Assembly: GCA_945877505.1 (NCBI GenBank)
Contig: CAMDWT010000005.1
Span: 1-56,264 of the forward strand
Length of the DNA stretch: 56,264 nucleotides
Direction of reading: 5' to 3'
Source: Crenothrix polyspora
GTDB lineage: Bacteria; Pseudomonadota; Gammaproteobacteria; Methylococcales; Methylomonadaceae
Below, piece by piece: positions 28,773 through 38,464 of the stretch. The translations under genes and the position numbers were made by a program. The stretch's first letter is position 1; every line of letters starts with the position of its first letter. The notes under the pieces were generated by a model. It was not told the origin of the DNA. It searched no databases and was given only the letters and a program-made list of their open reading frames with translations.

Positions 28773-29696
28773 TCACTCCAACATAAAATGATTGTTTTGA
28801 GCCACTCTGATTATCCCTTGATTTTCCTCTGGTTTTGCAAACACAGGCCCGCTCATTAGATGTTGGAGAAAAAAACCGACGGTTGCGCGTCTTGCAATAA
28901 TACGTACTTGGCGAGAATCTGCTGTGCCGCAGCGACAAATGCTATAACCAAAGCGGTCTGGTTCGTCTAACATCTGGACATGATCGGCATCTTTTAAAGT
29001 TAGCTCTACAGTGCCAGGTGATGATTGTTCAAAGAAACGCTGATAGTTGTTTTCTTTTGGTGCGCAGATATTCGAGGCCTGCCACGCAACTTCTGCACCA
29101 ATAAGCAATAAGGGCGCGCGCATTAAGGAAATAAGCCCCCCATGTGCGACAGACAGCTTACCATTATCATCAGGATCAATCGCGACTACGCTAGCGAAAA
29201 CCCCATATCTAGAGGCGGCAAGCATCGCATCTTTTCCCCCCATAGAATGACCAGCAACACCGATTTTTTTCGGATCAACCCCTTGTGTGGTGATCAACCA
29301 GTCGGCAAGAACATTGGCATCGTGAGCGAGCTCAAGATCACTGGTAAATAACGAATACCAACCCCGTACAGCGACAATAAAGCCACGCGAAGCCAGTGCG
29401 CGCGCATAACTCTCATACTGATCATCTGGAGCCATCAAGCCGGGCAAGAAAACAATAGCAGGCGCGTTTACAGGTGCGGCAACAGGTTGGTATAAGACAA
29501 CTGAGAGCGCTTCACCCTGATGATCTATTTTTAGTCTAGTGGCTATTACCTGTTGCGGCCCCAAGCCGGCTAAGTCACCCTTCGGCATATCAACGGCATC
29601 TAGGGCAAGTGTATTGCTAGGCGATAGCAAACCGAGACTACTGCAGCCAACAGTTAAGAAAAGTAAAATACTAGATAGGATAAATCTAAAGTGCAT
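28773..29696 (-). CDS. Lipoprotein alpha/beta-hydrolase (dienelactone hydrolase/chlorophyllase-like)
   Basis: 307 residues from the ATG at 29696, chosen because a GGAA lies 8 bases upstream and the N-terminus then reads as a lipoprotein signal (MHFRFILSSILLFLTVGC, Cys18). A 22-codon upstream extension is open but has no signal-peptide logic. The hydrolase fold shows VFLPGLMAPDDQYESYARAL, the nucleophile GHSMGG (Ser about 151) and a likely His in DADHVQML. This resembles the dienelactone hydrolase/PET hydrolase-like group; the substrate is unknown. Its 256-base upstream gap (29697-29952) is AT-rich and otherwise featureless. Confidence 0.8.
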   Translation of the reverse strand: MHFRFILSSILLFLTVGCSSLGLLSPSNTLALDAVDMPKGDLAGLGPQQVIATRLKIDHQGEALSVVLYQPVAAPVNAPAIVFLPGLMAPDDQYESYARALASRGFIVAVRGWYSLFTSDLELAHDANVLADWLITTQGVDPKKIGVAGHSMGGKDAMLAASRYGVFASVVAIDPDDNGKLSVAHGGLISLMRAPLLLIGAEVAWQASNICAPKENNYQRFFEQSSPGTVELTLKDADHVQMLDEPDRFGYSICRCGTADSRQVRIIARRATVGFFLQHLMSGPVFAKPEENQGIIRVAQNNHFMLE

Positions 29697-29952
29697 TGAT
29701 AAGTTCCAATAAAACATCATTAAGAAAGGGTAAAGTAGCGTTCTTTTTTGATCTTGCGCCATTATAGAGACGAAGAAATAGGATAAATATAGGGCTTTTC
29801 TAACCCTCTTAACGTCAAAAAATTCTGCTTTAAACGGAAAAGTATTTATCCGAATACTAAATAAGACCTTAGGATTTTAAGAAAGTTCATGATCAAAAAG
29901 TAAGATTGATTTAATCGCTAAGTTAAGAAATATTTATAAAAATAGTGGGGGT

Positions 29953-30957
29953 TTATACATGCGCATTTAAGGCTTTGAGAAGAGATTTAATGCTAGTGTA
30001 GGATAAGTTTCTATCGGGAAATAATAAATAGGACGGTAATGTAGCCGGTTGAAATTTTTTCCAGAAGGCTTCACGGCCACTGAGATGAAAAATGTGCTTT
30101 GCTATTTGATAAATACCGCGTGCAAGCTTTGCTGAAAAGCGACTCAGGCCACTGACCTCTCCTAGTTGGAAAGCAGGAACAGGCCCTGCAGTAACGGATT
30201 GACAGTCTTCTTTTGACAAGATTTGTAGCATAGAAATAACTAATAGCTCTGAGATGCCATTGGGTGCGTCTTTAGTGATGAGGACATTATTAAGAAGCCA
30301 GCCATTAGTTGATTGCAATTGACTAAGTATTAAGATGCCCACTATTTGAGTGTCTTTTTGAGCATAGAACCAGCGTTTACCTAAGCGATCTTCAAACACC
30401 TTAAAATCAGCTAAGTAAACTTGGGGTCCTTGGCGTTCCTTTTGCCATGAAGTGGCGACAGCTTGTAATGTATTTTCAATATCAGGATTGTCTCCAGAAT
30501 ATTCCTGCACGGAAGTCCCTTCTCGTAAGGCATGTTTAACTCTGTTACGAACTAATACGGCTTTGGGTCCTGTGTGATCAATAGGATTACTCAGTGGATT
30601 TAATATAAATTTTTCTCCGAACTCAATTAAAACAGCATTAAGATTTAAAGAAGCCCAGCGGGAAAAGTCTTCCGAAACAATAAGATAAACAACCCCTATT
30701 TTTTTACGTCGGCAATGCTGTTGAAAGGCGGTGGCTAGTATGGGCTTATCTGCTGGTGCGCATACCGGATCACCAAAAACCACAGCATTGCCTTTTTCGA
30801 GTCGATAACCAATGAAGCCTTCGATAAGGGGTGCTGAAAAAAATTGGCATGTGGAAGATAATAGACCCTCAGTATTAACATCGCCCCATTTACGCACAAG
30901 GTTAACGATGGTTTGGCGATCGAGAAGTTGATGTTCTTTTTTTAGCAAGACGGTCAT
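29953..30957 (-). CDS. DUF2156 / MprF C-terminal-like domain protein (putative aminoacyl-phospholipid synthase domain)
   Basis: 334 residues corresponding to the cytoplasmic catalytic half of phosphatidylglycerol lysyltransferases (DUF2156). Visible features are GYRLEKGNAVVFGDPV (about 50-65), NRVKHALREG in the tRNA-acceptor-like GNAT fold, and the C-terminal KKFQPATLPSYLLFP. There is no multi-pass flippase domain, so it is soluble or peripheral. In MprF this part moves Lys or Ala from aminoacyl-tRNA to phosphatidylglycerol; the donor and acceptor here cannot be told. It lies in the same direction as, and 256 bases upstream of, the lipoprotein hydrolase, and diverges from the next gene. Confidence 0.82.
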   Translation of the reverse strand: MTVLLKKEHQLLDRQTIVNLVRKWGDVNTEGLLSSTCQFFSAPLIEGFIGYRLEKGNAVVFGDPVCAPADKPILATAFQQHCRRKKIGVVYLIVSEDFSRWASLNLNAVLIEFGEKFILNPLSNPIDHTGPKAVLVRNRVKHALREGTSVQEYSGDNPDIENTLQAVATSWQKERQGPQVYLADFKVFEDRLGKRWFYAQKDTQIVGILILSQLQSTNGWLLNNVLITKDAPNGISELLVISMLQILSKEDCQSVTAGPVPAFQLGEVSGLSRFSAKLARGIYQIAKHIFHLSGREAFWKKFQPATLPSYLLFPDRNLSYTSIKSLLKALNAHV

Positions 30958-31210
30958 AAGTTTTGTTATACATGATATTGATGTGTATTTTTTATCGATT
31001 ATATTCAGCAGACTTGGTAAGTCAAATCAAACAAGAATCTGCATTTTTACAAGAAGGTTGTTTCAGTGATAAAAATTGATGTCAGCTTGGACATTATTAC
31101 TGTATTAATGTCATTTATGATTCACAAATTTTGAACGGTCGTTGATATCTGAAGTGCAGATGGTTTATAAGGTATTACATTATTTATTTTTTGAGGCAGG
31201 GTATAAAGGA

Positions 31211-32248
31211 ATGTCGAAACAAATTAAAACGATAGAACACTTTGCTGGTCATAAAAAAAAGCTCTGGGGTGGCTTTGTTATTGCTTTAGTGTTGAGCATT
31301 GTTTATACAGTATTTGCTGCCAATATGCCGAGTTATACGGAATTGATTAAGCAGTTAGGCATTACGCAACAAGATTTAGCCCGTTTGGATCATGGTGATA
31401 TTGTATTTTTTGATATCTCAGAAAGTAGCGAAAGAGAGCTAACCGCCGGGGCGGCAATGTATGTATCAGCGAGCCCAGCCAAAATTAGTGAAGTCATCAA
31501 GAGAGAAGATTTGGTATCTCTCGATACCGCCGTTATAGCGGCTGGAGTTATCCCTTTGCAAGCAACAGAGGAGGCTTTTAAGGGGTTTAGTTTTAAGGCA
31601 GGAAGTGAGGCGGTGGACGATTTTTGGGAGGCAAAGCCAGGTAGTCAGCTTAATTTATCTAGGCAGGAATTTCAGAGTATAAAAGCGGCAAGTCCTAAGT
31701 CGCTTGATGGGGCGTCTGCAATGTATAGAAAATTTTTATGGCAACGTTGGCAAGCTTATCGTAAAGAGGGTTTGAAGGGTATTGCAAATTATGACCGTGG
31801 TGATGGAGAAGAAGCCAGTCCTAGGCAGGAATTGAAGGCTGCTTTGTTGGAAAGTAAAGTGATTGAGAAGTATTTTCCTGCGTTATATAAAGCTTGGCTG
31901 AATTATCCAGTAGATTTTTCAGTGGGTATTGAAGAAGCCTTTTTTTGGAGTAATCGAATCGTACAAGGAAGTCCAACGGCAATTCTTGTCCATCGAGTCT
32001 CGTCGAGTGAAAGCGCTGGTGAGTTAATTCTTGCTAGACAATTTTACGTCGGACGTGCTTTTAATTCCAATCAGCTCATTATTGCTTGTTTACCTTATGG
32101 TAAAGGTGCTCTGGTTTTTTATTTAAATAGAACTTTTACAGATCAAACAGCGGGTTTTGGTAGCAGTTTAAAGCATTTTATAGGTGATAATCAGGCACAA
32201 TCTGAAATAACCAAGTTGCTGATAAATTTACGTAATACAGTAAAATAA
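31211..32248 (+). CDS. Exported or membrane-anchored protein of unknown function next to the sterol operon
   Basis: Not recognised. From the ATG at 31211 it has 345 residues: a short basic N-terminus (MSKQIKTIEHFAGHKKK), one hydrophobic segment (about 19-37, signal peptide or anchor), then a soluble domain presumably in the periplasm. The open frame runs up to a TTG at 31142 with another ATG at 31160; the later start is preferred because it gives a clean signal sequence, though its ribosome binding site is unclear. It has few cysteines and no lipobox. It is co-directional with the sterol genes, 289 bases upstream of cyp51. A role in handling or moving sterols is conceivable but only by position. 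Confidence 0.7.
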   Translation: MSKQIKTIEHFAGHKKKLWGGFVIALVLSIVYTVFAANMPSYTELIKQLGITQQDLARLDHGDIVFFDISESSERELTAGAAMYVSASPAKISEVIKREDLVSLDTAVIAAGVIPLQATEEAFKGFSFKAGSEAVDDFWEAKPGSQLNLSRQEFQSIKAASPKSLDGASAMYRKFLWQRWQAYRKEGLKGIANYDRGDGEEASPRQELKAALLESKVIEKYFPALYKAWLNYPVDFSVGIEEAFFWSNRIVQGSPTAILVHRVSSSESAGELILARQFYVGRAFNSNQLIIACLPYGKGALVFYLNRTFTDQTAGFGSSLKHFIGDNQAQSEITKLLINLRNTVK

Positions 32249-32537: not shown

Positions 32538-34175
32538 ATGAATACGATAAATCCTGAAAAATCTGCTTCTCCTATCAAACAACCCCCTAAAATGCCTGGT
32601 GCATTGCCATTTTTAGGGCACATGTTAAAGTTTGGAAAAAATCCCTTTCTCTACATGATGACGCTCAGAGATACACTTGGAGAAATCGGTGAATTTCGGA
32701 TGTTTCATCAGAAGATGGTATTGATGACGGGTCCAGAAGCAAATGAGGCCTTTTTTCGCGCCCCCGATGCCCAGTTAGATCAAAGTCAAGCTTACAAAAT
32801 CATGACACCTATTTTTGGTAAGGGTGTTGTTTTTGATGCGCCGCCACATAAAAAAGATCAGCAACTTAAGATGCTGATGCCAGTATTGCGTGATAAGCCT
32901 ATGCGTGGTTATGCGCAAGTTATTGTTCAAGAAGTTGAGCAAATGATCGCCGACTGGGGTAATACAGGAGAGATTGATTTACTTGAGTTCATGAAAGAAC
33001 TGACGATTTATACTTCTAGCCATTGTCTGCTTGGTGATGAATTTCGCTATGAGTTGAATGAAGAGTTTGCAAAGATTTATCACGACCTTGAAAAAGGCGT
33101 TAATCCACTGGCTTTTGTTTTTCCTAACTTGCCGTTACCCGTATTTCGTCGACGTGATAAAGCGCGCGCCAGATTACAGGAATTAGTGACAGGGATTATT
33201 GCTAAAAGAGCTCAAAAAGCAGAAAAGAGTGAAGATGCCTTTCAATTGCTCATAGACTCTAAATATGATGATGGCACTCACTTATCGCCACATGAAATAA
33301 CAGGAATGTTAATAGGGACTATATTTGCCGGGCATCATACGACGGCGGGGACTGCCGCATGGACGTTGCTTGAATTGGCGAAACGACCAGAGCAGTTGAA
33401 TTTAGTCTTAAGTGAATTGGATGCGCATTTCGGTGCTGAAGGTGAAGTAACTTTCCAGTCCTTACGAGAGATTCCTGTCTTAGAAAATGTCATTAAAGAA
33501 GTTTTGCGACTGCATCCTCCGTTAATATTTTTAATTCGTAAGGTGATGAAGGACTTTCACTTTAAAGGTTATACCGTAAAAGCAGGTAAGTATGTTTGTG
33601 CATCCCCACGCGTTTCTCATCGTATAGCGGAGATTTTTCCTGATCCTGAAAAGTTTGATCCTGGTCGTTACTCAGAAGAACGTCAGGAAGATGCCAAACC
33701 ATTCAGCTGGATTGCTTTTGGTGGTGGGAAACATAAATGTACAGGGAATGCATTTGCCATGTTGCAACTAAAGGCAATTTTTAGCATTTTATTACGCCGC
33801 TATACATTTGAACTTGTAGATGAGAAAGATTACTATCAGGATGATTTTACTCAAATGGTGGTCCAACCTTTATCACCTTGTCGTGTTCGTTACATCAAGC
33901 GAACGGATATTAAAGAGAATGTTGCTGAATTAAAAGCGCCTGAAAAGCAGGAAAGTGGACGAGTTAATCCAGGATTTGAAATAAAAATTGATCGTGAACT
34001 TTGTCAGGGACACGCCGCATGCATGACAGAGGCGCCAGAAGTTTTTCATGTGGACGATGGCGGTAATCTAACTATCTTACAAGAAAATCCTTCCATGGAA
34101 TTACTTGAAAAAGTGCGCTTAGCTGAAAAATACTGCCCCACTAAAGCAATTTTTGTAAACACAAAGAACTTATAA
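32538..34175 (+). CDS. cyp51: Sterol 14-alpha-demethylase CYP51 fused to a 3Fe-4S ferredoxin
   Basis: Removes the 14-alpha-methyl group of lanosterol-type sterols with O2 and electrons from its own ferredoxin. 545 residues. The P450 domain (1 to about 455) has the I-helix AGHHTT (264-269), EVLR (ExxR, 321-324) and heme loop FGGGKHKC (Cys401). A linker (about 456-478) leads to a ferredoxin domain with Cys489, Cys495 and Cys533-Pro. His492 replaces the middle Cys, as expected for a [3Fe-4S] cluster. The same fusion is known from Methylococcus capsulatus. First gene of cyp51-NTF2-osc-sqmo; the next gene starts 10 bases later. The ribosome binding site is poor; an 8-codon frame (32515-32541) ends in an ATGA overlap with this start. 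Confidence 0.96.
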   Translation: MNTINPEKSASPIKQPPKMPGALPFLGHMLKFGKNPFLYMMTLRDTLGEIGEFRMFHQKMVLMTGPEANEAFFRAPDAQLDQSQAYKIMTPIFGKGVVFDAPPHKKDQQLKMLMPVLRDKPMRGYAQVIVQEVEQMIADWGNTGEIDLLEFMKELTIYTSSHCLLGDEFRYELNEEFAKIYHDLEKGVNPLAFVFPNLPLPVFRRRDKARARLQELVTGIIAKRAQKAEKSEDAFQLLIDSKYDDGTHLSPHEITGMLIGTIFAGHHTTAGTAAWTLLELAKRPEQLNLVLSELDAHFGAEGEVTFQSLREIPVLENVIKEVLRLHPPLIFLIRKVMKDFHFKGYTVKAGKYVCASPRVSHRIAEIFPDPEKFDPGRYSEERQEDAKPFSWIAFGGGKHKCTGNAFAMLQLKAIFSILLRRYTFELVDEKDYYQDDFTQMVVQPLSPCRVRYIKRTDIKENVAELKAPEKQESGRVNPGFEIKIDRELCQGHAACMTEAPEVFHVDDGGNLTILQENPSMELLEKVRLAEKYCPTKAIFVNTKNL

Positions 34176-34185
34176 GAGATAAAGA

Positions 34186-34788
34186 ATGGCCGCATATCCC
34201 AGAGCAGAGCTAGAAGAAATGGTTGAACGTTGGTTGCAAGCAAATCGTGATGCTGAAAAGGAAGGAAATTGGCCAAAATACTTAGGGGCTATGTATACCG
34301 ATGAGGCTGAATATCGATGGAATATTGGACCTAATGAAGAGTTTGTAGCACGTAGCCGTAAAGAGATAGAAGAATGGGCTTTAGGTGTTCAAATGGAAGG
34401 TTTTGAAGAATGGCGTTATCCCTATCACCGAATTTTAATTGATGAAAAACAAGGTGAAGTGATCGGTTTGTGGGATCAAGTGTCACCAGCATTGAGAGAA
34501 GACGGAACACACTATGAAGTGGCTGGCATTGGTGGCTCATGGTTTCGTTATGGGGGGAATTATAAGTGGGAATGGCAGAGAGATTTCTTTGACTTAGGCA
34601 ATGTTAAAGCATTGTTTTTTGAATTAGCAGCAGATGATAAACTTGATCCTGCGGTAAAAAGAAAAATTGGTAAGCTCGCTAAAGGACAATTGCTACCCGG
34701 TCATGAACGCTTACGCAAACAGCCTGGGCTATTAAAAAAATTGAAAGGCTTTATTGCAATGGTACGCATTGCTTTATTTAATACATAA
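34186..34788 (+). CDS. NTF2/SnoaL-like protein in the sterol operon
   Basis: 200 residues. The N-terminal 130 residues read as an NTF2-like alpha+beta cone fold: ELEEMVERWLQANRDAEKEG opening helices, then MYTDEAEYRWNIGPNEEF, EIEEWALGVQMEGFEEW and strands ending in GGSWFRYGGNYKWEWQRDFFD. The C-terminal 60 residues are basic and helical. Ketosteroid isomerase and SnoaL polyketide cyclases share this fold, and an NTF2-like protein gene also lies near cyp51 in Mycobacterium. The gene sits 10 bases after cyp51 and 39 bases before the cyclase gene. An isomerase, binding or chaperone role toward sterol intermediates is inference; no catalytic residues can be assigned. Confidence 0.8.
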   Translation: MAAYPRAELEEMVERWLQANRDAEKEGNWPKYLGAMYTDEAEYRWNIGPNEEFVARSRKEIEEWALGVQMEGFEEWRYPYHRILIDEKQGEVIGLWDQVSPALREDGTHYEVAGIGGSWFRYGGNYKWEWQRDFFDLGNVKALFFELAADDKLDPAVKRKIGKLAKGQLLPGHERLRKQPGLLKKLKGFIAMVRIALFNT

Positions 34789-34827
34789 AATTATCACTCA
34801 TTAGTTAAAAATACTTCATAAAAATCT

Positions 34828-37071
34828 ATGCTTAATGTAAAACCGAGTTGGAATAGCTGGAAATTGCTCACTGAAAAAGGGCGGCATATTTGGGCATTCA
34901 AATCGGAGTCAAATACTATTAATGAGCATCTGAAAAATGCAAATACGCTATCAGAGCAAGAAATAAAAGAATTCAGTCGTGACTTCCAATTTGATAAGGC
35001 TAGTAATCCCAATTCAGGTGACAAAGTTTATAGGCACTCGGCTATTCGTGAAAAGTTTACGAAATTTAAGGGACAAATTCCGCAAGTTGCTTCGCAGGAA
35101 AAGCAAAAAATCACTGATGCACTGATTAACGGTATGAATTACCATACTTTCTTGCAAAGTGACGATGGACATTGGCCCGGTGATTACGGTGGTCCTTTGT
35201 TTCTTTTACCGGGCTTGTTAATTGCTTCGTATATTTCGGGCACCCCCTTTCCTAAAGCTCATCAGGAAATGATGAAGCTTTATTTGTTTAATCATCAGAA
35301 TAAAGATTCGGGTTGGGGTATGCATATTGAGGGTGAGTCAACGATGTTTGGCACCGTTATGCAATATGTATCTTTGCGTATACTGGGGGTTGATAAGGAT
35401 CATGAGTCTTTGATTAACGCTAGAAGTTGGATCAAAAGCAATGGCGGTGCAACTGGAATACCTTCTTGGGGGAAGTTTTATCTGGCCACCTTGAACTTAT
35501 ATGATTGGCAGGGATTTAACAGCCTATTTCCTGAAATGTGGTTATTCCCTAAATGGCTGCCTTTTCACCCATCACGTTATTGGTGCCATAGTCGTATGGT
35601 TTATTTGCCGATGGCTTATTGCTATGCCAAGCAGATTAAAGTCCCTGAAAATGAATTGATCCTGTCCTTAAGAGAAGAAATCTATAACGAGTCTTTTGAT
35701 ACGATTAACTGGCCCAGTCAGCGTAATGCAGTTTGTGAAAAGGATTGTTACACGACACCTTCTCCGGTTTTGAAATGGATGAATTTTTTTACTAATAATT
35801 ATGAAAAATTCAAATGTTCTTGGTTAAGAAAAAAAGCGATTGCGTATATTCTAAAATATCTTAATGCAGAGGATGCCCAAACCGATTACATCAATATAGG
35901 GCCCGTAAATAAAGCAATCAATTCAATTTGTATCTGGGATGCTTATGGAAAAGATTCTGAACAGTTTAAAAAGCATGTGGCACGCTGGTACGATTATTTA
36001 TGGATTGCTGAAGATGGCATGAAAATGAGTGGTTATAATGGGTCACAGTTGTGGGATACCGCTTTTGCTACTCGAGCCATGTTGGAAAGTGAGTTGGGCA
36101 AGCTATTTCCCGCCACGATTGAAAAAAGCTACCAATTTATTGAATTGTCGCAAATTAAAACCGAACACCCTACGCATGCTGAGTTTTTTCGTCATCCAAT
36201 GATTGGAAGTTGGCCTTTTTCAACGGCAGAAAATGGCTGGCCTGTTGCCGACTGTACTGCAGAAGGCTTAAGCGCTACTTTAGCCATTCATCATTCAGGT
36301 CTCGTTAAGACCGTTATTAATGATGAACGAATTAAACAAGCGGTCGATATTATCCTTTCATATCAGAACATTGACGGCGGTTGGGCAACGTATGAGTTAA
36401 CCCGATCATCTAAGTGGTTGGAAAAACTTAATCCATCTGAAGTGTTTGCCGATATAATGATCGATTATTCTTGGACAGAATGCACGGCCGCTTGTGTTAT
36501 TTCTTTATTGGAGATTCAAGAGGACTATCCTGACTATAAGGCTGGTCAAATACAACAGGCAATTACTGCTGGGTTACAGTTTATCCTTAAGCAACAAAAG
36601 CCAGATGGTTCTTGGTATGGTGGTTGGGCGGTATGTTTTACTTATGCCACTTGGTTTGCAGTAGAAGCGATCAGTAAGGCTAAAGGTAAAGGTTATTTAA
36701 AAGATACGATTTTAACCAGTAGCATAGACAAGGCCTGTGCTTTTTTAGTTGATAAGCAAAAAACAGATGGTGGTTGGGGTGAAACTTTCGAGTCATGCTC
36801 TAAGTTGGTTTACACGGAGGCTGTTTCGTCTCAGGTCATTAATACTGGGTGGGCATTATTGACGTTAATGGTTGCTGATTTTACTGACAAAAAGGTAATC
36901 GAAACGGGTGTTAATGTACTGTTGAGTAGGCAAACAGACATTGGCGATTGGCCGCAAGAGAGTATTTCCGGCGTTTTTAATTATAACTGTATGATAACTT
37001 ACGCAAATTATAGGAATATATTTCCTATTTGGGCATTGAGTCGATACTATGATAAGTATATTCAAGTATGA
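34828..37071 (+). CDS. osc: Oxidosqualene cyclase (lanosterol synthase type)
   Basis: Cyclises 2,3-oxidosqualene to a tetracyclic sterol. 747 residues, the usual length. It has the cyclase acid motif DCTAE (475-479) rather than the DxDD of squalene-hopene cyclases, plus repeated QW motifs (near 113, QNIDGGWATYE, QKPDGSWYGGW, QKTDGGWGETFESC). Residues tied to product choice read Tyr354 (in YINIGPVNK), Asn469 and Val473 (in NGWPVADCTAE). By a remembered alignment this equals the plant cycloartenol synthase changes His477Asn/Ile481Val that produce lanosterol. No clear ribosome binding site precedes the ATG. Probably membrane-associated. Third gene of the sterol operon. Confidence 0.96.
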   Translation: MLNVKPSWNSWKLLTEKGRHIWAFKSESNTINEHLKNANTLSEQEIKEFSRDFQFDKASNPNSGDKVYRHSAIREKFTKFKGQIPQVASQEKQKITDALINGMNYHTFLQSDDGHWPGDYGGPLFLLPGLLIASYISGTPFPKAHQEMMKLYLFNHQNKDSGWGMHIEGESTMFGTVMQYVSLRILGVDKDHESLINARSWIKSNGGATGIPSWGKFYLATLNLYDWQGFNSLFPEMWLFPKWLPFHPSRYWCHSRMVYLPMAYCYAKQIKVPENELILSLREEIYNESFDTINWPSQRNAVCEKDCYTTPSPVLKWMNFFTNNYEKFKCSWLRKKAIAYILKYLNAEDAQTDYINIGPVNKAINSICIWDAYGKDSEQFKKHVARWYDYLWIAEDGMKMSGYNGSQLWDTAFATRAMLESELGKLFPATIEKSYQFIELSQIKTEHPTHAEFFRHPMIGSWPFSTAENGWPVADCTAEGLSATLAIHHSGLVKTVINDERIKQAVDIILSYQNIDGGWATYELTRSSKWLEKLNPSEVFADIMIDYSWTECTAACVISLLEIQEDYPDYKAGQIQQAITAGLQFILKQQKPDGSWYGGWAVCFTYATWFAVEAISKAKGKGYLKDTILTSSIDKACAFLVDKQKTDGGWGETFESCSKLVYTEAVSSQVINTGWALLTLMVADFTDKKVIETGVNVLLSRQTDIGDWPQESISGVFNYNCMITYANYRNIFPIWALSRYYDKYIQV

Positions 37072-37082
37072 AAGAGGATTCA

Positions 37083-37121
37083 ATGTCACGTAAATTATTT
37101 GTACCTAATAGCTTAATATGA
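37083..37121 (+). CDS. Candidate 12-residue coupling peptide ahead of squalene monooxygenase
   Basis: ATG at 37083 preceded by AGAGGA with 5-base spacing, encoding MSRKLFVPNSLI and ending with a TGA that overlaps the ATG of the next gene (ATGA at 37118-37121). The squalene monooxygenase start itself has no ribosome binding site, so ribosomes may reach it by finishing this frame. About one in four ATGA-type starts would have such an upstream frame by chance; the strong ribosome binding site is the main support. Confidence 0.35.
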   Translation: MSRKLFVPNSLI

Positions 37122-38464
37122 AATCAGAATACGATATTTGCATTATAGGCGCGGGCATGGCAGGCGCCACCATCGCCGCATATCTTGCGCCTAAAGGCAT
37201 TAAGATTGCGTTAATTGATCATTGCTTTAAAGAAAAAAAACGTATTGTCGGCGAATTATTACAGCCCGGGGCAGTACTGTCCCTTGAGCAAATGGATCTT
37301 GGGCATTTGCTGGAAGGTTTCGACGCTCAATCAGTTGATGGTTATTCCTTGCTTCAAGGGGATGAAAAAATAACGATTCCCTACCCAAAAAGTTATAAAG
37401 GTATGGGTTTGCACAATGGTCGATTTTTGCAGAAAATTAGAGCGTCCGCTTTGCAAAATGAGTCCGTTACGCAAATTAATGGCAAGGCACTACAGTTACT
37501 GGAAAATGAGGGGCATGAAATTATCGGTGTGAGTTACCGAGAATCACTAACTTCTGAAATAAAATCTATTCATGCGCCTTTAACGATTACCAGTGATGGT
37601 TTCTTTTCAAATTTTAGAGAAAGCCTCAGTAATAATGAAAAAACAGTAACGTCTTATTTTATTGGTCTCATATTAAAGGACTGTAAAATGCCGTTTCCAA
37701 AACATGGTCATGTATTTTTATCGGGACCAACGCCCTTTATTTGTTACCCCATTTCTAAACATGAGGTTAGGTTGTTAATTGATTTTCCAGGCGACCAACT
37801 TCCTAGAAAATTTTTATTGCAGGATCATTTGGATGCCAATGTAACGCCTTATATTCCCGATAGTATGCGTGAAAGTTATGAGCAGGCTATTGAAGAAGGT
37901 GGTTTTAAGGTTATGCCCAATCATTATATGGCTGCAAAACCAATCATACGTAAGGGCGCGGTTATGCTGGGTGACGCGCTTAATATGCGCCATCCTTTAA
38001 CAGGCGGTGGGTTGACCGCAGTGTTCTCAGATATACAAATATTGAGTGCTCATTTGTTGGCGATGCCTGCGTTTAATAATAACGACTTGATTCATGAAAA
38101 GATAGAAGCGTACTATCGTGACAGGCAGTATGCTAATGCCAATCTTAATATTCTTGCAAATGCCTTATATGGTGTTATGTCGAATGATTTGCTTAAAACA
38201 GCAGTATTTAAATATCTTAGTTGTGGCGGTGAAAATGCGCAGGAATCAATTGCCATTTTAGCAGGGTTAAACAGAAATCATTTTTCATTGATCAAACAAT
38301 TCTTCTACTTAGCGGTTTTTGGGGCTTTCGATTTGGTACGAGAAAATATAGTTAATCTTCCAAAGGCTACAAAAATACTATGGGATGCGCTAATTATTAT
38401 TAAACCCCTCGCTAAAAATGAACTCTCTTTAACGGCAGTTTTCAGTGGTTATTTTAAAAAATAA
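37118..38464 (+). CDS. sqmo: Squalene monooxygenase (squalene epoxidase)
   Basis: FAD-dependent oxidation of squalene to 2,3-oxidosqualene, the substrate of the cyclase encoded just upstream. 448 residues. The Rossmann motif is IIGAGMAGATIAAYLAPKG (9 onward), the family motif GELLQPGAVLSLEQM follows, and the second FAD motif is MLGDALNMRHPLTGGGLTA. Hydrophobic stretches near the C-terminus (about 385-400) suggest membrane association. It lacks the long N-terminal membrane region of animal enzymes. Last gene of the operon; 46 bases after osc, with an intervening 12-codon frame that may couple translation. Confidence 0.95.
   Translation: MKSEYDICIIGAGMAGATIAAYLAPKGIKIALIDHCFKEKKRIVGELLQPGAVLSLEQMDLGHLLEGFDAQSVDGYSLLQGDEKITIPYPKSYKGMGLHNGRFLQKIRASALQNESVTQINGKALQLLENEGHEIIGVSYRESLTSEIKSIHAPLTITSDGFFSNFRESLSNNEKTVTSYFIGLILKDCKMPFPKHGHVFLSGPTPFICYPISKHEVRLLIDFPGDQLPRKFLLQDHLDANVTPYIPDSMRESYEQAIEEGGFKVMPNHYMAAKPIIRKGAVMLGDALNMRHPLTGGGLTAVFSDIQILSAHLLAMPAFNNNDLIHEKIEAYYRDRQYANANLNILANALYGVMSNDLLKTAVFKYLSCGGENAQESIAILAGLNRNHFSLIKQFFYLAVFGAFDLVRENIVNLPKATKILWDALIIIKPLAKNELSLTAVFSGYFKK

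Follow-up and report, generated by a model that had tools for sequence, protein, structure and literature searches.

The window analysed here, a stretch of 56,264 nucleotides from Crenothrix polyspora (GenBank assembly GCA_945877505.1, contig CAMDWT010000005.1), contains a compact sterol operon in which one gene, encoding a 200-amino-acid protein of the NTF2 fold (positions 34186-34788, plus strand), had been left without a known step by an initial annotation made from the sequence alone. The question raised by this locus is what that protein does to the sterol. On sequence grounds the gene is an orthologue of 8,14-Bsr, a sterol reductase whose function was already published in May 2026, and it is no longer to be regarded as unassigned: the step performed by the orthologue is reduction of an 8,14-diene coupled to isomerisation to the 8(14)-ene (PMC13277303). 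The 8(14)-double bond makes methanotroph sterols useful as biomarkers (PMC13277303), and the gene, hereafter bsr, belongs to the enzyme family behind that bond.

The NTF2-like gene and its operon

Lee, Giner and Welander (J Bacteriol, 28 May 2026; PMC13277303) picked an NTF2-superfamily hypothetical protein among the genes common to sterol-making methanotrophs, reported that homologues of the M. capsulatus protein adjoin sterol genes in several methanotrophs, and found that the M. capsulatus copy, expressed in E. coli, converted 4,4-dimethylcholesta-8,14,24-trienol completely to 4,4-dimethylcholesta-8(14),24-dienol; an attempted deletion of bsr in M. capsulatus was unsuccessful. In the same work Y43F, Y43A and D133A reduced activity, Y37 and Y78 tolerated phenylalanine but not, fully, alanine, and changes at Y80 and D136 had no effect (PMC13277303). 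To collect relatives of the window protein, two peptide patterns were scanned over the species genome collection; at least 118 were found and the best 80 analysed. With the homologue of M. capsulatus Texas the window protein shares 137 identical residues (70% over 197), and Y37, Y43, Y78, Y80, D133 and D136 are all present in it and at the same positions in all 80 related loci. The likeness to 8,14-Bsr comprises this identity, the six mutated pocket residues, the NTF2 fold and a cyp51-ferredoxin context (PMC13277303). The Texas piece carries no cyp51, osc or squalene monooxygenase at E 1e-20, matching what is reported for M. capsulatus (PMC13277303), whereas in the window, and likewise in many relatives, bsr forms a single operon with the osc and squalene monooxygenase genes.

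The protein has an NTF2/ketosteroid isomerase (KSI)-type fold with neither a strongly hydrophobic segment nor transmembrane helices; PDB sequence searches with it returned nothing useful (7awz, 7awy, 3hxj; 7ue2, 5j7x). KSI shares the fold but performs no reduction, and window Bsr continues beyond about residue 150 in an additional helical C-terminal part, which few of the matched chains cover. The active-site residues of KSI do not align with Bsr (PMC13277303). The ERG24/LBR-type C-14 reductase (PF01222) reduces the same 14-double bond as Bsr but yields the 8-ene (PMC13277303), and PF01222 was not among the matches of the window protein. A SnoaL cyclase label was rejected, SnoaL_2 reaching 15.9 of the 27 bits and SnoaL_4 13 of the 24 bits set by the curated Pfam cut-offs.

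The gene set of the window was drawn from open reading frames (ORFs), family searches and PDB sequence searches, in an assembly of 126 contigs that is 99.75% complete. The four operon ORFs all lie on the plus strand with gaps of 10, 39 and 46 bases, exactly as first described. Upstream of bsr stands a cyp51-ferredoxin fusion (sterol C-14 demethylase, 32538-34175), which matched Pfam P450 and Fer4, has its ferredoxin domain at about residues 482-540 and found its closest PDB entries in Cytochrome P450 51 (6mcw/7snm, E 5.5e-223). Downstream follow osc, an oxidosqualene cyclase gene (34828-37071; TIGR01787 above cut-off), and a squalene monooxygenase gene (37118-38464; Pfam SE 2.9e-79, best PDB relative 6c6n). 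The nearest solved relative of the cyclase is lanosterol synthase 1w6k, and in the alignment to it a valine falls at human V453; according to the available part of PMC4919349, V453 accompanies lanosterol formation and I453 cycloartenol formation in the bacteria tested. The window cyclase is accordingly predicted to be of lanosterol type. In the gap between osc and the squalene monooxygenase gene we read by eye a 12-codon ORF (37083-37121) after a Shine-Dalgarno-like AAGAGG; the stop of this ORF and the start of the squalene monooxygenase gene overlap in ATGA, an arrangement suggestive of translational coupling. Promoter and terminator scans of the window stayed at chance level (17 found versus 19.7 expected and 7 versus 6.3, respectively). 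The cyclases of two other genomes, G052 and G061, contain an in-frame TAG, in G061 at the extreme C-terminus.

Distribution of bsr among sterol-gene genomes

Of the 237 genomes of the family, 78 had a bsr match (E 0.001), 82 one for cyp51 and 83 one for osc (both E 1e-60); 76 carried all three and 151 none. Co-occurrence with osc and cyp51, the check proposed in the initial annotation, was therefore tight: every one of the 78 bsr genomes has cyp51, and 76 of them have osc, while bsr is present in 78 of the 82 cyp51 genomes. Homologues widespread in genomes devoid of sterol genes, which would have spoken against a sterol role, are thus not what the family contains. Within a class sample of 369 genomes, the window's own included, bsr matches were confined to 4: besides the own genome, these are a second member of the family, a member of the order (68% identity) and a distant SnoaL-like case at 28%. 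Gene order points the same way. The window bsr starts 10 bases after cyp51-ferredoxin, and cyp51 ends no more than 40 nt upstream of bsr in 59 of the 80 loci, being farther off or divergent in 13 and missing from the piece in 8. For an earlier list of locus tags, the column heads of which were not in the part available, we take the sterol gene listed next to osc to be cyp51. In the available part of that table (PMC4919349), one number is skipped between these two genes for Methylobacter luteus (1255, 1253) and for Methylosarcina lacus (0845, 0843).

Several points weigh against this assignment. Four genomes have cyp51 without bsr (G018, G019, G074 and G077); in the last three only cyp51 fragments were found, but in G018 (75% complete) cyp51 is intact and no bsr lies downstream of it. 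Conversely, bsr occurs without an osc match in G058 (97% complete) and G154 (63%). Strain and neighbourhood, rather than the tag itself, are the grounds for equating the Texas homologue with the gene of locus tag H156_RS0106965, and the methanotroph origin of the window is judged from its named relatives. Finally, Bsr has no homology to known cofactor sites (PMC13277303). With these points weighed, we consider it almost certain that the operon builds a sterol up to the C-14-demethylated, 8(14)-unsaturated stage by way of 8,14-Bsr.

In G018 (contig L031, genus g8), about 790 bp containing repeats (2068-2858) separate cyp51 from the SdmB-like and SdmA-like genes that come next. The bsr profile matched nothing in G018 or G019 even at E 10. 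We considered ERG24 in place of bsr in this genus; neither genome is among the PF01222 matches, and both drafts are too fragmented to settle the point. G018-type strains might keep 8,14-diene sterols. Elsewhere in the family osc occurs without bsr and cyp51 in G059, G152, G156 and G193.

Some bsr loci have unusual company. On the pieces from Spongiibacter pelagi (L154, 1289-10037) and L138 (915-5838) we noted cyp51-ferredoxin, an SDR gene, bsr, a membrane protein gene and, by eye, a TetR-like regulator, with a TonB-receptor-like ORF (also by eye) downstream of the cluster in L154. The membrane protein, for which family searches gave no match, may resemble cycloeucalenol cycloisomerase. No osc was found on either piece as far as examined, and the cluster possibly alters algal or plant sterol precursors. 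In Methylotetracoccus (L147) and Methylocaldum (L137), where osc is only about 35% identical to that of the window, a FAD_binding_4 protein gene adjoins cyp51 near bsr; its product looks like a DHCR24-type reductase.

Proposed route, end product and competing explanations

In the proposed route, squalene monooxygenase would supply oxidosqualene, the cyclase would turn it into lanosterol, and Cyp51-ferredoxin would strip the 14-methyl, leaving the 8,14-diene; 8,14-Bsr would then add two electrons and relocate the double bond that is left to 8(14), a single pocket giving both proton and hydride to the diene. The published proposal has hydride arriving first, at C-15, and protonation following at C-9 (PMC13277303). 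In an alternative order, protonation at C-15 would generate a C14-C8-C9 allyl cation that would be quenched by hydride at C-9. This cation route, which rests on work on the eukaryotic 14-reductase, seems to us at least as likely as the hydride-first one; among the literature matches listed (titles and abstract starts) there was no citable paper on it.

How far the pathway continues was judged from the genes found in the assembly. It gave no match to the canonical C-14 reductase family PF01222 at E 0.001 and none to the SdmB-like oxygenase at E 1e-60, in line with the initial observation that the C-4 demethylation genes are absent, the SdmB-like gene being found neither in the window nor in the assembly. 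A query that we take to be DHCR24-like gave only a partial match (31% over 123 residues). A lanosterol-type cyclase, taken together with the lack of a detected C-14 reductase, SdmB-like or close DHCR24-like gene, leads to 4,4-dimethylcholesta-8(14),24-dien-3beta-ol as predicted end product, and the compactness of the operon, with Cyp51 and Bsr side by side, helps to make this prediction a sharp one. We infer that the window copy is active and that this compound is the main end product. In the family, PF01222 exceeded its cut-off in 11 of the 237 genomes and was full-length in 10, from four genera, all of which also carry bsr (G012, G013, G014, G056, G065, G117 and G158-G161). Methylotuvimicrobium has been named for having a C-14 reductase alongside bsr (PMC13277303); by the sequence matches, this combination may be wider than that genus.

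Among the other explanations, the one that survives best, although we think it unlikely, is that Bsr only binds the diene and isomerises or protonates it, the electrons coming from the ferredoxin domain of Cyp51 or from a reductase of the E. coli host. The Cyp51-ferredoxin fusion was co-expressed, as substrate maker, in every active E. coli test, bsr-associated cyp51 homologues are all fused to or co-localised with a ferredoxin, and Bsr is without a known cofactor site (PMC13277303); the tight linkage of bsr to the cyp51 fusion in the family fits as well. Nevertheless, the published work assigns the reduction to Bsr itself (PMC13277303), and in the Myxococcales locus L150 the cyp51 ORF directly before bsr has 459 amino acids, too short for a fused ferredoxin. 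Ferredoxin is, moreover, a one-electron donor, poorly suited to reducing an unactivated diene. Far less probable is a sterol carrier that would pass intermediates from Cyp51 onward without chemistry of its own: the NTF2 fold and the absence of a strongly hydrophobic segment would suit it, but the orthologue converts its substrate completely in E. coli and is less active as Y43F, Y43A or D133A (PMC13277303). As for the missing C-4 demethylation enzyme that the initial annotation had considered, for which the absence of an SdmB-like gene would leave room, it can be practically dismissed, since the orthologue product retains both C-4 methyls (PMC13277303) and an SdmB-like gene accompanies bsr in some genomes but not in others (38 of the 78 bsr genomes have one, by hand count). 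The same suggestion held up in its other part: going by the orthologue, this is a missing-step, sterol-isomerising enzyme with a KSI-like NTF2 fold, its step coming after C-14 demethylation rather than at C-4 (PMC13277303). With the protein thus read as 8,14-Bsr, the interest that remains lies in its hydride donor and in an aminoacyltransferase/hydrolase gene pair beside the operon.

The neighbouring DUF2156/hydrolase pair

Upstream of the operon, on the minus strand, lies lpgC (29953-30957), an ORF of 334 amino acids for a soluble, stand-alone DUF2156 (LPG_synthase_C) protein with the fold of tRNA-dependent aminoacyltransferases, unfused to AspRS and a candidate steryl-aminoacyl synthase. Next to it, on the same strand, is abh (28773-29762; true start probably near 29696, judging from a homologue), for a chlorophyllase/polyester-hydrolase-like alpha/beta hydrolase with a lipoprotein-like signal recognised by eye. 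By hand count, 19 of 30 loci have an abh homologue next to the DUF2156 gene; none was seen in the other 11, where some pieces are short. In fungi, according to the available part of PMC9437257, ErdS is an ergosteryl-aspartate synthase made of AspRS plus DUF2156; lpgC has the DUF2156 domain in common with it but stands alone, without AspRS. The best PDB sequence matches of lpgC were chains 9w9e/f/g, which carry the name aspartate-tRNA ligase and are matched over the last third of their length; going by name, length and match position, 9w9e is probably ErdS. By sequence lpgC appears nearer to this solved AspRS-DUF2156 chain than to the phospholipid transferases, in a comparison where the DUF2156 families in the PDB are few and ErdS and the class relative G310 have long tree branches.

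It is conceivable, though we hold it only tentatively, that the sterol locus extends to 28773 and encodes a bacterial tRNA-dependent sterol aminoacylation, the counterpart of fungal ErdS. In such a system LpgC would transfer an amino acid from its tRNA to the 3-OH group of the methanotroph sterol, and the hydrolase (28773-29762), as an exported lipoprotein, would cleave it off again. Were the pair to act on sterols, bacterial sterols would gain a polar head group. We know of no earlier steryl-amino acid system in bacteria, and none was reported in the literature among the matches listed (titles and abstract starts).

DUF2156 matches in the family numbered 33 at E 0.001, and after dropping three weak ones (G044, G164 and G179) 30 remained, with E <1e-30. 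Counting as sterol-gene genomes those that carry at least one of four genes (bsr, osc, cyp51 and SdmB-like), the DUF2156 gene was present in 29 of 87 such genomes versus 1 of 150 others (G064), or 2 of 150 if G044 is restored. Outside the genus of the window the figures were 9 of 54 versus 0 of 148. Within it there was no contrast (20 of 33 with sterol genes versus 1 of 2 without), which counts against the sterol reading, so the family-wide contrast is partly, and may be in large part, a matter of kinship. A class sample of 162 genomes, the own one included, held one other stand-alone relative, the distant G310 (85.7 bits); in five further genomes the matches were weak (28-46 bits) and fell within larger frames. 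As to distance from the operon, on five contigs longer than 1 Mb with both genes, two pairs lie at most 20 kb apart (chance 0.002 under random placement), a limit chosen after the distances were known and with the length of one contig rounded. In Methylotetracoccus oryzae (L201) and Methylolobus aquaticus (L202) the pair lies with cyp51, bsr, osc and a squalene-monooxygenase-like match within about 11 kb, the osc being of another clade (34% identical) and the squalene-monooxygenase-like match 22% identical.

Steryl aminoacylation has further evidence against it: the DUF2156 gene is absent from 58 of the 87 sterol-gene genomes and from 18 of the 23 genomes behind named sterol loci (present in 5), G064 has it without any sterol gene, and the pair lies far from the operon in the complete or near-complete genomes G024, G055 and G163. 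The main rival is phospholipid aminoacylation, as by MprF or by LpiA with a hydrolase such as AcvB in the part of the literature available. Unlike MprF, lpgC lacks the N-terminal membrane flippase, no 19-residue Kyte-Doolittle window in it exceeding 1.6, and the MprF-type ORFs of 828-863 amino acids in relatives are 22-23% identical to it. Hopanoid aminoacylation is less likely, because the DUF2156 gene is nearly confined to sterol-gene genomes and hopanoids are, to our knowledge, general in methanotrophs.

Three smaller observations concern the same neighbourhood. The window's assembly (G000) has a second DUF2156 copy (contig C15, 17280-18251), 56% identical to the first and with no hydrolase beside it. 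In Methylotetracoccus oryzae cyp51 and bsr flank a DHCR24-like gene. Between lpgC and the operon of the window, on the plus strand, orf368 (31142-32248; true start probably near 31211, going by a homologue) encodes 368 amino acids with one N-terminal hydrophobic segment, and its homologues adjoin the DUF2156 gene in some relatives.

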